DNA of 64,000 nt. Source: Bombella intestini (GTDB taxonomy: Bacteria > Pseudomonadota > Alphaproteobacteria > Acetobacterales > Acetobacteraceae). Below, one piece after another: positions 45,888-51,651 of the stretch (positions are counted from its first letter, which is position 1; every line of letters starts with the position of its first letter). The position numbers and the translations under genes were made by a program. Under the pieces are notes generated by a model. The model was given only the letters and a program-made list of their open reading frames with translations, was not told where the DNA came from and did no database searches. The DNA lies in NCBI RefSeq assembly GCF_002003665.1, contig NZ_JATM01000002.1, forward strand, positions 186,001-250,000, written 5' to 3'.

Positions 45888-48800
45888 TTAGGCCTGCCGG
45901 TAAGGACCGCCGGCCTGCACTTCGATGCTGAGCATGTTCTGGCCAACGTTAGCGGACGGAACATCATGCAGAAGAAGTTCTGCTTCCCCCTGCGTCCAGC
46001 GATGCGGTCCAGCTTCGATGACATCCCAGCCCTTCAGGTGCCGTTCTGTCAGATGGCGGGTGATGACATGTTCATGGCCACCAGCCCAGACAGATACCTG
46101 GCCAACCAGCATACCGAGCTCACGGCGGTCATCCATATGCGGCCCGATATTTTCGGAAGGACGGAACGTCCGAGAGCCAAGTATGACACGACGGGCATGG
46201 GCAGGCAGTGAGAAGAGATAACGGCCTGCTTCATGCCGCTGCGGGCGAATAGTCCGCCCATCTTCCAGTCGGATATAGGGGGCGGGGTCTGCCGTCATAC
46301 CATCATGGGAGGTATCAGCAGCCGTTTCGACCTTTGTAATACCCAGTTCAGCCGCCCGTGCAGCGAAGGTCTCGTGAAGTGGTTTCACGAAGGCCTGCGA
46401 AACATCCAGCGGTGCTGCAGCATGTTCGTCCCAGTTAAGCCGCTGACGCTCTGCCAGGCTCAGGATGTCTTCCGAGGAACCATCTGGCTTGTAGAGTTCT
46501 TCCTCGTCTGTATCCAGCCAGCTTTCTGTCAGAACATCATTGGCCCAGATGACGGAATGAGGTGCCGTCTGCACATGGTAGTAGTCATACTCTACCTGGC
46601 TGTGGTCGTAGCGGATTGATGTGCCGTTGACGAGCATACGGGCAGGAACGAAGCGTCCTTCGAAGTAGAAGCAATGTTCCGGCGTGACAGAAAGGTCCTT
46701 ATTGGGCAGACCCTCGCCAAAGGCATTCTTCGACACGATGACGGACCAACCGGCCATATCCTCAGGCTGGGACGTGTTAACACGGGCACGACGCTGGATG
46801 ACGGCTGTAATCTCGCGAACGTCTTCTTTCCCGTCTTTAAAGACGCAGATCTGCTCGCCCTTACGCAGCCGCTCCACAGCTTTCTCCCCCTTGGGGGTGC
46901 GGATCATGCTGCCAGCAAGGAAGCACTTCTGATAGACAATAACGGTATTGCCGTTTCCGTCATCATTGATGATGAACCCGTTGTCAGCGTAGCTACCTGT
47001 CAGGTTTATCTGCCAAGTCTGACCGTTCTCGGAAACCGTTAGAAGACCCTGTTTGAGGCTAACACTGCCGGAATTGCTGTATTTCAGTCCAGCAACACGG
47101 ATACGAGCGTTGTAGCCCATGGAGGTGTTGACGAGTACGGCACCAGAATCAATGTTCAGCAGGCCGCCCAGGTTGTTTGTTCCAGCACTATCTGTGGCAC
47201 CGACAATCGTAGCGCCGGACATGGTACCGCCGGACTGAACCATGGTGTTGGGGCTGCTGGAAACATGCTGGCCAGAACCCGCATCGTACGTGACGAGGGT
47301 CTGAACAGCCGTACCGCCAGAGGACACAGTCAGCTCGCCACCATTGGCAATGCGTGCCCCGCTGACCCATCCGCCATTAGCAACGTCGATGTGCTGGACA
47401 GACGCCCCGGAGTTCAGAATACCGGAAGCCCCGCTCATGATGGTCAGGCGGCTAATGAACGCACCAGAGGCGACAGTAGCCTGACCGGATGAGAGGTACA
47501 CGCTGTTGAGCTGAGCACCGGAGTTGATGATGCTCGTTGCTCCATTGAAAGCAGAAAGGACCTTAACGCCTGCACCACCCTGAGGGATGTCCGTATTGAC
47601 ACCATTCAGCGTGACATTCGGTACTATAGCACCGCTGGCGATGGCGAGAGAGGCGCCCTGGCTGGCACTGAGCATGGTGGTAATGCGGGCACCAGAACTG
47701 ACGCTGTTTACACCACCGATTGCGTTGAAGGTGTAGAGGAACGCCCTAGCGGAAATAAGGTTCGTTGCATTCGTAGCGTTGAGGTTGAGGATAGCCCCGC
47801 TGGTAAGGCTGTTCGTTCCGCCCGTTGCATTGAGGTCACCGATGACACCCCCACCGGAGATGGTGTTTGTCGCACCCGAGGCTGTCAAAGTCCCAACGGT
47901 GCCTGCGGCGTGAATAGTATTCGTTCCGCCGGTCGCATTGAGGTTAACGACGTAGGCTCCACTGGAGACGTCGTTCGTTCCGCCCGTTCCGTTGAGGGTA
48001 CCTACGATAGCCTTACTGGAGATGTTATTCGTCCCGTTCGAGGCGTAAAGGTACTGGATTGTTCCTGTGCCGAGAATATTATTAACAGCATTGGGGGCAC
48101 CATTAATGGTGAAGACATCGGCGCCATTAATGGTGGCTGTCCCATTGCTGCCAACATCAATTTCCTTGAAGCTGTAGCCGGAATCAACAAACAGGGACCC
48201 ACCAACAGCCGATGTGGTTGTTGGGGCGCCATACCACGACCCTTGTGCAACCGTCGCAGTGCCAGCAGAGACCTGTAGCGGTATACTGTTGTTGATCAAG
48301 CCACCGGACATGAGGCTACCCGTACCACCAACGATGGAGAGCCCGTTAGCGATCGCCCCTCCAGAGCTGAGGACAACGGCACCATTTATCTGGGCTGTTG
48401 CGGAGGAGACAACACCCCCGTTGCCGATAACAACAGCACCGCCGGTGGCGGACGTGTTATTGGGGTCCGACCCAGAGCCGGCCATAGCAGTACCAACGGC
48501 AGCACCCGAGCCGGAAACAAGAGCCGTACCACTACCAACAGCATAGATAGCGTTGCCACCAATTGTAGCACCGGACGTGATAACCGATGTACCACCACTG
48601 GCCACGATATAATCCACCGATGCCCCGCCCGGGAAGACGGTGCGGTCAGTCGCATTGGTGATGATGGTAGCACCGTTTCTGATGGTCCCGCCGGAGAGGA
48701 GTGTCAGGGTACCGCCGTTACTTACAACGAGATGACTGGCGCTACCGCCGTTATCGACCTGGATGGTACCGCCATTATTGGCGACAAATTCAGACCCAAC

Positions 48801-49913
48801 ACCACCGGATTGAATTTCAGCATAGCCCTGGCTGGCACTCAGGCCAGAAATATAGCCACCCGAGGCAACAAGGGCAGAACCACCATTTTTGACAGCCCCA
48901 TTGAGGAGCGTCCCGCCGGAACTAACAGTCTCTGTACCACCGGTGATAGTGGGGCCCACGCTTGTCCCGCCATAAAGAACCGTGCCCTTTGCCCCACTTG
49001 AGAGGACAGAGCGCGTTACGGTCCCATCACTACCGACGATCTCAGTCGCACCGGATGTAATGACATCGTCATAAGAGGAGCCGAGACCATAGCTACCGTA
49101 TTGCAGGGCGTAGCCAGCGTTAAGCCAACTGAAATACGTCCCACCGGTGACCTGCATTGTCCCACGATTGCTGATGGTGGCACCGGAGGTGGTTCCGCCA
49201 GAGTTGAGAAGCGTACCACCCAATATGGTAGCGTTGGAGGACAAACCGTTACTGAGGACCAGCTGGATACCTTGGCTATGTGCAAAGAGCTGATCTTTGG
49301 AGAGACCACCGGAGAACACGGCCTGACTACCGAAGAGGGTTCCGCCGCTCCCTGTTCCCCCGTTACCAACCCCGTAAAGGCTGCCCGGGTTAAATGTTCC
49401 GCCGCTGATCAGACCACCGGACCCGTTCACCGCATAGCCTTTAACGACGAAGTCAGCCGCACCACCACCAGCAAGTGCATACCCACCGGAGCCGACAATG
49501 GGGTCTAGCGCGGTACCACCCGCACTGACGTACTTTGCGTTAGCACCGGCACCGGTCACACCACCGGCAAAGATGGCCCCTGATGAGCCGACAATCCCAC
49601 GGGAGATGACGCCACCACCCAGAGCCTCAATAGAGGCATTGTAAAGTGCCGTGGCACCCGTCATGAGGCCGCTCGACCCAATAATGGCTATGGAGCCACC
49701 ATTAACGGCAATCCCGCCATCTGAAAGGCCATTATATGAATATAGAAGACTGTTCTTGCCAGACCTAGTGACACCACTGACGTAGTTGTTGGACGTATCG
49801 TCGTCGTGCTTTGTGCTGCCGTTAAGAACCGTATGCCATTTTGAAGGAAGGCTATTCGTACCAATGGCGAAAAGGCGATCGTACTGGGTGTCGTAAGTGT
49901 AGGAAGTGGCCAT
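45888..49913 (-). CDS. Large AIDA-like repeat protein with C-terminal Hint domain
   Basis: A 1341-residue probable surface protein. Residues about 60-960 consist of Gly/Ser/Thr-rich beta-helix repeats of the AIDA type (for example SGGTLLNGAVKNGGSALVA). A Hint (hedgehog/intein) domain begins at Cys997 (CFLAGSMIRTPKGEKAVE) and includes VTPEHCFYFEGRFVPARM. A C-terminal domain of about 120 residues ends the protein. There is no signal peptide at the start (MATSYTYDTQYDR) and no beta-barrel, so the export route is unclear. AAGGA lies 11 bases before the ATG. The partner gene at 49976-50539 is upstream in the same unit. Confidence 0.88.
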   Translation of the reverse strand: MATSYTYDTQYDRLFAIGTNSLPSKWHTVLNGSTKHDDDTSNNYVSGVTRSGKNSLLYSYNGLSDGGIAVNGGSIAIIGSSGLMTGATALYNASIEALGGGVISRGIVGSSGAIFAGGVTGAGANAKYVSAGGTALDPIVGSGGYALAGGGAADFVVKGYAVNGSGGLISGGTFNPGSLYGVGNGGTGSGGTLFGSQAVFSGGLSKDQLFAHSQGIQLVLSNGLSSNATILGGTLLNSGGTTSGATISNRGTMQVTGGTYFSWLNAGYALQYGSYGLGSSYDDVITSGATEIVGSDGTVTRSVLSSGAKGTVLYGGTSVGPTITGGTETVSSGGTLLNGAVKNGGSALVASGGYISGLSASQGYAEIQSGGVGSEFVANNGGTIQVDNGGSASHLVVSNGGTLTLLSGGTIRNGATIITNATDRTVFPGGASVDYIVASGGTSVITSGATIGGNAIYAVGSGTALVSGSGAAVGTAMAGSGSDPNNTSATGGAVVIGNGGVVSSATAQINGAVVLSSGGAIANGLSIVGGTGSLMSGGLINNSIPLQVSAGTATVAQGSWYGAPTTTSAVGGSLFVDSGYSFKEIDVGSNGTATINGADVFTINGAPNAVNNILGTGTIQYLYASNGTNNISSKAIVGTLNGTGGTNDVSSGAYVVNLNATGGTNTIHAAGTVGTLTASGATNTISGGGVIGDLNATGGTNSLTSGAILNLNATNATNLISARAFLYTFNAIGGVNSVSSGARITTMLSASQGASLAIASGAIVPNVTLNGVNTDIPQGGAGVKVLSAFNGATSIINSGAQLNSVYLSSGQATVASGAFISRLTIMSGASGILNSGASVQHIDVANGGWVSGARIANGGELTVSSGGTAVQTLVTYDAGSGQHVSSSPNTMVQSGGTMSGATIVGATDSAGTNNLGGLLNIDSGAVLVNTSMGYNARIRVAGLKYSNSGSVSLKQGLLTVSENGQTWQINLTGSYADNGFIINDDGNGNTVIVYQKCFLAGSMIRTPKGEKAVERLRKGEQICVFKDGKEDVREITAVIQRRARVNTSQPEDMAGWSVIVSKNAFGEGLPNKDLSVTPEHCFYFEGRFVPARMLVNGTSIRYDHSQVEYDYYHVQTAPHSVIWANDVLTESWLDTDEEELYKPDGSSEDILSLAERQRLNWDEHAAAPLDVSQAFVKPLHETFAARAAELGITKVETAADTSHDGMTADPAPYIRLEDGRTIRPQRHEAGRYLFSLPAHARRVILGSRTFRPSENIGPHMDDRRELGMLVGQVSVWAGGHEHVITRHLTERHLKGWDVIEAGPHRWTQGEAELLLHDVPSANVGQNMLSIEVQAGGPYRQA
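47030..49735 (-). repeat. Degenerate coding repeats of the beta-helix region
   Basis: Within the Hint protein, short units of about 18-22 residues with the pattern SGGxxxxxxxxxGGxxxVxxG recur dozens of times. A distinct sub-block near 47690-48060 repeats units ending in GGTN or GATN followed by I/V-S-x-G (GGTNDVSSGA, GGTNTIHAAG, GATNTISGGG). The units are too divergent at DNA level to be a tandem satellite. Confidence 0.75.
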
Positions 49914-50610: not shown

Positions 50611-50931
50611 TGGTGTCCACGGGGGGATTCGAACCCTCGACCCCAGGATTCATACCACTTCGGTTTTCACCGCCGGTCCCCCCTTGGAGGAAGGGCCGTT
50701 CGTGGTCTGGACTGTCTCTTCACCACAGGCGTTTTGCCTGCCATGGTGTCGCCCGTACAGTCTCTACACCTTCCTGCCCACTAAGTAGGGGGTAGGCTTG
50801 GCTCGGGATTGGCTTGGCCTAAAACGGCGTTAGCGTTCCCCGACTTTGAGCGAATTCACCGGGTGGTTTGCCATCCCGGTGCCCAATTACGATTAGGAAT
50901 CCTGTGCTCTATCCTGCTGAGCTACGTGGAC
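50611..50931 (-). tRNA. tRNA-Arg (anticodon CCT) interrupted by a group I intron
   Basis: Exon 1 is 50895-50931 and exon 2 is 50611-50650, with CCA encoded at 50611-50613. Acceptor strands GTCCACG and CGTGGAC pair fully; the D arm is GCTC/GAGC; the anticodon stem CAGGA/TCCTG re-forms only when the 244-base insert is removed, giving loop TTCCTAA with anticodon CCT. The T loop is TTCGAAT; the T stem GAGGG/CCCCC has one A-C mismatch. The insertion site is directly after U36, the third anticodon base. Confidence 0.93.
50651..50894 (-). ncRNA. Group I self-splicing intron in tRNA-Arg(CCT)
   Basis: The 244-base insert lies after the U of the anticodon (5' splice site CCT|AATCG) and ends in G (TATG|AATCC), as group I chemistry requires. 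A GGG in the first 15 intron bases can pair with the exon CCU to make P1. Core segments similar to those of the Azoarcus tRNA-Ile intron (subgroup IC3) are visible on the minus strand: GAGCCAAGC (50797-50805), GAAGGTGTAGAGACT (50759-50773) and AGTCCAGACCACG (50701-50713). No homing endonuclease gene is present. Confidence 0.9.
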
Positions 50932-51111
50932 ACGCAACGTCTAGCTAGCGTTTTTTTTACACTTTCGCAAGTCTGTCACCGTACCATGTCCCTTGGCCTG
51001 TGAGGGGGAACACGATAAGAAGGAATTGTTCTGACAGTCGATGCTTCCACCCCTGCCATGCTGGAAGCCTTGTTTAAGACCGGCCCTGGCACGGCCTTTG
51101 CAGGTTTGCCC

Positions 51112-51651
51112 ATGTTCCTTTCATCATCACGCCCAGTATTCCGTTCTTCTGTCCTCTGGCACGGTCTACGCCGTCCTATGGTACTGTCGCTCTTGGCGGT
51201 GATGACTGTTGGCGGGCTGGCTGGCTGCGGTGGAAAGCCGCGTGATCCGTCTTCGCTGACATTGCCTCGCAACCATCTTCTGGGCGTGGACCGTGGCGCA
51301 CAGGGTGGTGACGATCAGCTCCGTGGTGGGGTAAACGCTTATCTCTGGCGTGGGGCGATTGATACGCTTTCCTTCATGCCGATGGCCTCTGCCGATGCAC
51401 AGGGGGGTGTTATCCTGACAGATTGGTACCAGCCCCCGGGCGCACAGGATGAACGCTTCAAGATTGCTGCCTATGTATTGGACCGCCGCTTGCGTTCGGA
51501 TGCCATCCGGTTGAGCGTCTTCCGTCAGACACGCATTAATGGGGGAGAGTGGGAAGATACACCCGCAGCTCCCAATACAGCGGCGGACATCACAGCCCGT
51601 ATTCTGGAGCGGGCACGTCAGCTGCGGGCCGAGAATGGCGGTGGGAAATAA
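51112..51651 (+). CDS. DUF3576-like lipoprotein
   Basis: A 179-residue lipoprotein from the start at 51112; the lipobox ends GGLAGC, about 40 residues in. The mature domain contains VNAYLWRGAIDTLSFMPMAS, then GVILTDWYQPPGAQDERFKI and a final DITARILERARQLR, which match DUF3576 proteins that sit just upstream of leuS in many alphaproteobacteria. The function is unknown. Starts at 51058 and 51178 are also possible; 51112 has an AGG about eight bases upstream. It is nine bases from leuS. Confidence 0.8.
   Translation: MFLSSSRPVFRSSVLWHGLRRPMVLSLLAVMTVGGLAGCGGKPRDPSSLTLPRNHLLGVDRGAQGGDDQLRGGVNAYLWRGAIDTLSFMPMASADAQGGVILTDWYQPPGAQDERFKIAAYVLDRRLRSDAIRLSVFRQTRINGGEWEDTPAAPNTAADITARILERARQLRAENGGGK

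Follow-up and report, generated by a model that had tools for sequence, protein, structure and literature searches.

The window analysed here, a 64,000-nucleotide stretch of a Bombella intestini contig, carries at positions 50611-50931 a tRNA-Arg(CCU) gene interrupted by a group I intron, which we predict, with a probability of about 0.96, to self-splice and leave a normal tRNA. The tRNA is split, the insert has a covarying core and the end bases of a group I intron, guides match their exons across several host tRNAs, and the gene was detected as a single copy and is present in 11/11 genomes of the genus. The intron is a new member of a known intron family that is already common in related bacteria.

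Results

A split tRNA-Arg(CCU) gene

Inspection of the sequence and ARAGORN agreed that taking 244 nt out of the minus strand from 50931 to 50611 leaves a tRNA-Arg(CCU) whose CCA is encoded. When introns were allowed, ARAGORN called a 77-nt tRNA-Arg(cct) with encoded CCA and a 244-nt intron at this locus, whereas no tRNA was returned at 50611-50931 without introns, in agreement with the original prediction that the tRNA folds only when these bases are taken out. On the minus strand, the 5' exon (50895-50931) ends in the anticodon C34 C35 U36, the intron (50651-50894; placed by ARAGORN, the RF00028 match and the alignment of relatives) ends in the omega-G, and the 3' exon (50611-50650) runs from A37 to the encoded CCA. 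Insertion between U36 and A37, with a U before the 5' splice site and a terminal G, had been proposed from the sequence and was confirmed. The U preceding the 5' splice site lies in a U.G pair with the internal guide and the last intron base is G, both hallmarks of group I introns, and insertion after U36 of tRNA-Arg(CCU) is that of the alpha-proteobacterial tRNA-Arg(CCU) intron family.

In a permissive run over a 1001-base stretch, the Rfam covariance model RF00028 (Intron_gpI) gave a whole-model match of 37.4 bits (E 9.6e-8), under the curated cut-off of 50 bits, which is a detection threshold and not a biological feature. A whole-genome search returned the same locus (E 4.5e-8) as the sole RF00028 match at E <= 0.01. 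At the curated Rfam threshold, cmscan reported only a tRNA-Thr in the window and nothing at 50611-50931. The single-strand fold, computed with the stretch offset by one base, was modestly better than shuffled sequences (z -2.14, with 4/200 as good). The assignment to group I is thus backed by ARAGORN, by the sub-cut-off RF00028 match and by the comparison with relatives described below.

The draft genome (2.02 Mb, 12 contigs, rated 100% complete) contains 48 matches to RF00005, with arginine anticodons ACG (two genes), CCG and UCU. A second intact tRNA-Arg(CCU) gene, which had been raised as a possible objection to the intron, was looked for and not detected among the 48 RF00005 matches in the 12-contig draft; since none of these matches has a CCU anticodon, the split gene is the only tRNA-Arg(CCU) detected there.

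Two genes lie close by: a repetitive 1341-aa protein carrying a Hint_2 domain in its C-terminal part (45888-49913, plus-strand coordinates of a minus-strand gene) and a DUF3576 protein adjoining the tRNA (51058-51651, plus strand). A DUF3576 relative occurs in 28/119 intron loci among the matches listed, and the genomic place is therefore partly shared.

A covarying group I core

Pairing was examined in an alignment of 66 distinct introns, picked from 94 by leaving out near-copies and long or doubtful introns; in assembling the 94, 19 loci without a clean split or of at least 300 nt had been skipped, and identical introns and one containing N had been dropped. The helices of a structure drawn from the window's own intron row, a choice that favours it against the slid control, were paired in 87.7% of cells, compared with 77.6% after shuffling and 33-43% after sliding. 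Cells changed on both sides numbered 410, against 129.8 in shuffled alignments, and 0/500 shuffles reached as high a count.

P4, P6 and the P3/P7 pseudoknot of the group I core are present in both the RF00028 match and the 66-intron alignment. P3 pairs UCGCUC (50848-50853; all coordinates of intron elements refer to the minus strand) with GGGCGA (50749-50754); this helix (helix 3) is paired in 99.0% of cells, and 5/6 of its pairs changed on both sides. P4 (helix 4, 99.7% paired) is formed by UCGGGG (50838-50843) and UCCCGA (50803-50808). For P7 (helix 9), GACUGU (50757-50762) pairs with ACAGUC (50710-50715), pairs 1-5 forming in 66/66 introns and pair 6 in 16/66; two of the first five pairs change on both sides (U-A/C-G and G-C/A-U/U-A). 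P3 and P7, whose absence would have spoken against a group I intron, are thus both present and covary in relatives. The P9.2 hairpin (50661-50672; helix 13, 99.2% paired) is capped by a GAAA tetraloop (L9). The structure has weak spots in P8b, paired in 36.8% of cells with variable and poorly aligned P8 tips, in P1, whose counts are blurred by misaligned exons, and in the P2 hairpin (50857-50881), where one pair fails in 39/66 introns.

The guide matches the exon it faces

The internal guide GGG (50882-50884) pairs with C34 C35 U36 in P1 through a U36.G wobble, and the adjoining AUU (50885-50887) is by inspection complementary to A37 A38 U39 of the 3' exon, making it a candidate strand of P10. 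Matching of guide and exon was scored independently of the alignment columns, with a one-base shift permitted. In 66/66 introns the guide pairs with at least three bases of its own 5' exon starting from a U.G, over exons ending in CCU, GGU, GUU, CUU, UUU and ACU. All 24 distinct exon/guide classes fitted, against a mean of 12.6 and a maximum of 18 in 2000 shuffles; the non-CCU classes fit their own exons in 17/17 cases, and only 3/17 would fit CCU.

These features suggest the following course. The gene would be transcribed and the precursor would fold into the ribozyme core, with the guide GGG holding the anticodon CCU in P1 through the U36.G wobble. The first attack, after U36, would come from a guanosine bound in P7; the freed U36 would then attack after the terminal G, while the AUU beside the guide could hold A37 A38 U39 as P10. 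Joining of the exons would yield a normal tRNA reading AGG.

Distribution of related introns

A custom model built from 31 intron cores (R1), applied with stricter search filters to the large genome sets, found the intron in 11/11 Bombella genomes; one of these (G032) lacks an RF00028 match, and the absence this implied was rejected when R1 found an intron. Within the family, R1 matched 71/150 genomes at 81 places, all host tRNAs counted (E limit 0.001), whereas RF00028 matched 42/150 at E <= 0.01 and only 7/150 above its curated cut-off. R1 also matched 41/289 genomes of the class (E limit 0.001) and 27/299 of the phylum (E limit 0.0001).

Manual reading of the split genes assigned 58 of the 81 family places, no two of them in the same genome, to tRNA-Arg(CCU) and the remaining 23 to other tRNAs; the Arg(CCU) intron of G149, for instance, lies at U36. 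An intron-free junction pattern matched 51/150 family genomes, which we read as 45 true intron-free Arg(CCU) junctions, five starts of known introns and one doubtful case (G129). None of the 45 is among the 58 intron carriers, and the remaining 47/150 genomes showed neither an Arg(CCU) intron nor an intron-free junction.

A pattern scan recovered at least 119 stretches, including some from Acetobacter, Gluconobacter, Komagataeibacter, Asaia, Commensalibacter, Bombella, Bartonella, Azospirillum and Rhodobacter, and together with the tree it shows the window intron to be akin in sequence to Arg(CCU) introns from genera such as Bartonella and Gluconobacter. In the roughly 1.9-2.2 kb surrounding the tRNA, sequence identity of the window is 85-86% to B. 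apis, B. dulcis and B. pluederhausensis and 80% to B. saccharophila, so that it belongs to a Bombella species distinct from these four. A quick tree of 123 introns, in which 53/120 inner branches are weak, largely tracks taxonomy: label changes total 22 across all groups, compared with 59.8 after shuffling. Bartonellaceae form one group (99), as do the 10 Bombella rows (99). Departures from taxonomy occur in Paracoccaceae (6 changes) and in Acetobacteraceae (9 changes, at least three by well supported branches), the latter figure arising in part because five Bombella rows carried a separate label.

Introns in the 115 relatives that could be measured among the matches listed are 213-297 nt long (median 230); 4/119 could not be cut by script. 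The 244-nt Bombella intron, originally proposed to be a very small natural ribozyme, is therefore of ordinary size. A 197-nt intron occurs in the same family in a tRNA-Thr(GGU) (L057, genome G088). The Azoarcus intron is about 205 nt long, and the L057 intron is shorter. A literature search on the smallest group I intron found nothing.

For 13 relative loci the exons were re-split with hand-set motifs, and the ARAGORN labels His(atg), Phe(gaa), SeC(tca), Ile(gat) and Arg(gcg) given to some relatives were taken as mis-splits. By this re-splitting, related introns in the family also interrupt further tRNAs, and do so at different points of the anticodon loop (L032, L037, L038, L048, L057 and L086): after U34 in Leu(UAA) and Arg(UCU), after U33 in Leu(CAA), after U35 in Lys(UUU), and after U36 in Thr(GGU) and Asn(GUU). 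Introns of the same kind are also present in L085 (G024) and L149 (G112), where the host tRNA has a variable arm and an unusual anticodon loop; in L085 this loop reads CCCUAGUG after splicing by hand. In other classes of the phylum, R1 introns lie in two tRNAs called Met(cat) by ARAGORN (L349, L350), host calls that agree with a relationship to tRNA-Ile(CAU) introns. A literature search on several tRNA hosts of group I introns returned mostly mitochondrial work.

An altered L2 loop and P8 motif in Bombella

The L2 loop of the window intron is CAAA (50867-50870). It is CAAA in 10/10 distinct Bombella introns from 11 genomes and GAAA in 58/58 other distinct Arg(CCU) introns (55 read by a first script, 3 by a wider one). 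P8 (50721-50748) starts with CCR followed by a fixed YGG in 10/10 distinct Bombella introns, whereas it starts with YCU in 51 of the 53 that could be cut out from the 58 non-Bombella introns. A YCU start of P8 is that of the 11-nt receptor. Saccharibacter, a near relative of Bombella, has GAAA and CCU (L218). The two exceptions, L043 and L050, have a non-YCU P8 and keep GAAA, so the link between L2 and P8 is not strict. Among the 115 introns in the matches listed, CAAA occurs in five (four from named Bombella and one from a further genome of the genus) and plain GGAAAC in 84; 22 have another form, mostly GAAA within another closing pair with that of Bartonella tamiae ambiguous, and 4 were unread by the script.

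The joint change of L2 and the P8 receptor in all Bombella copies is one possible novelty. Tentatively, and at somewhat less than even odds, Bombella may have replaced one of two long-range anchors of the ribozyme, either by a new loop-receptor contact or by a ribozyme that does without that contact.

Discussion

Points against the splicing model include the sub-cut-off Rfam score, the altered L2 and P8, the single-strand z of -2.14 and the self-derived test structure. An intron that has degenerated and no longer splices, leaving a dead tRNA gene while tRNA-Arg(UCU) reads AGG by wobble, would suit the altered L2 and P8 receptor motif, the tRNA-Arg(UCU) in the genome and the rarity of AGG (4/2853 codons in five window genes). 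We consider it highly improbable: the exons fold cleanly in ARAGORN, and although a dead gene should presumably decay, 11/11 genomes of the genus retain the core, the end bases and the guide and differ in their loop sequences. That the insert is something other than a group I intron, such as a tRNA intron removed by protein or a chance fold, could draw on the Rfam score under the cut-off and the modest folding z-score, but is very hard to reconcile with the P3/P7 covariation, the guide-exon matching in 66/66 introns and the end bases U and G. A self-splicing group I intron in tRNA-Arg(CCU) is thus our preferred reading.

Its occurrence in an acetic acid bacterium, originally viewed as extending the range of such introns, has precedent. 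In the part of a 2015 Asaia paper (PMC4596401) available to us, a footnote to Table 1 describes an Arg tRNA 'split by a sequence homologous to a group I intron', marking the rows of Asaia, Acetobacter, Gluconobacter, Gluconacetobacter and Komagataeibacter (the last identified by its reference number), with Granulibacter unmarked; our scans find introns family-wide. These acetic acid species share bacterial family and amino acid with the Bombella case; the available rows differ in that Bombella is absent and no anticodon or structure is given. Literature searches combining group I introns with Bombella found no paper, and with Acetobacter and tRNA found nothing beyond PMC4596401. The sequence tests support the original prediction that a group I intron follows U36 in tRNA-Arg(CCU), but neither of the grounds on which it was held to be surprising, range and size.

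The closest experimental parallel in the literature considered is BbgpI of Bartonella bacilliformis, which has the same host tRNA-Arg(CCU). According to the accessible text of PMC7717549, BbgpI self-splices and also splices in vivo, tRNAscan-SE finds its host gene only with the intron removed, and a CCT repeat flanks it. Self-splicing is demonstrated for the Bartonella relative and predicted for the Bombella intron. Other Bartonella introns have a core as in Bombella but the CCU P8 motif, and their readable L2 loops are GAAA. The same text (PMC7717549, citing Paquin 1999) reports tRNA-Arg(CCU) group I introns in Agrobacterium and other alpha-proteobacteria; by that description, the Agrobacterium introns share tRNA and intron class with that of Bombella.

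Of the loop and receptor elements linked to subgroup IC3, the Bombella intron has the GAAA loop in P9.2, while L2 is CAAA and the P8 motif is changed. The Azoarcus tRNA-Ile intron, a member of IC3, sits in the anticodon loop of its tRNA, and its two GAAA/11-nt contacts are L2-P8 and L9-P5. Compared by description, the two introns have in common an anticodon-loop host and a GAAA loop in P9, whereas the P2 loop (CAAA) and the P8 motif differ in Bombella. The IC3 label fits the general features of the subgroup, to which the Bombella intron may belong. The portion of PMC3494683 at hand places the GAAA loops of the two Azoarcus contacts at nt 24-27 and 189-192.

Neither the tRNA nor its intron is picked up when tRNAs are scanned for without allowing introns and Rfam is run at its default settings, so that genomes of Acetobacteraceae can seem to lack tRNA-Arg(CCU). 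In Bombella, the altered L2 and P8 amount to a natural experiment on the importance of such contacts, and the related introns of different host tRNAs, whose guides match their own exons, provide good material for studying the movement of small ribozymes between tRNAs.
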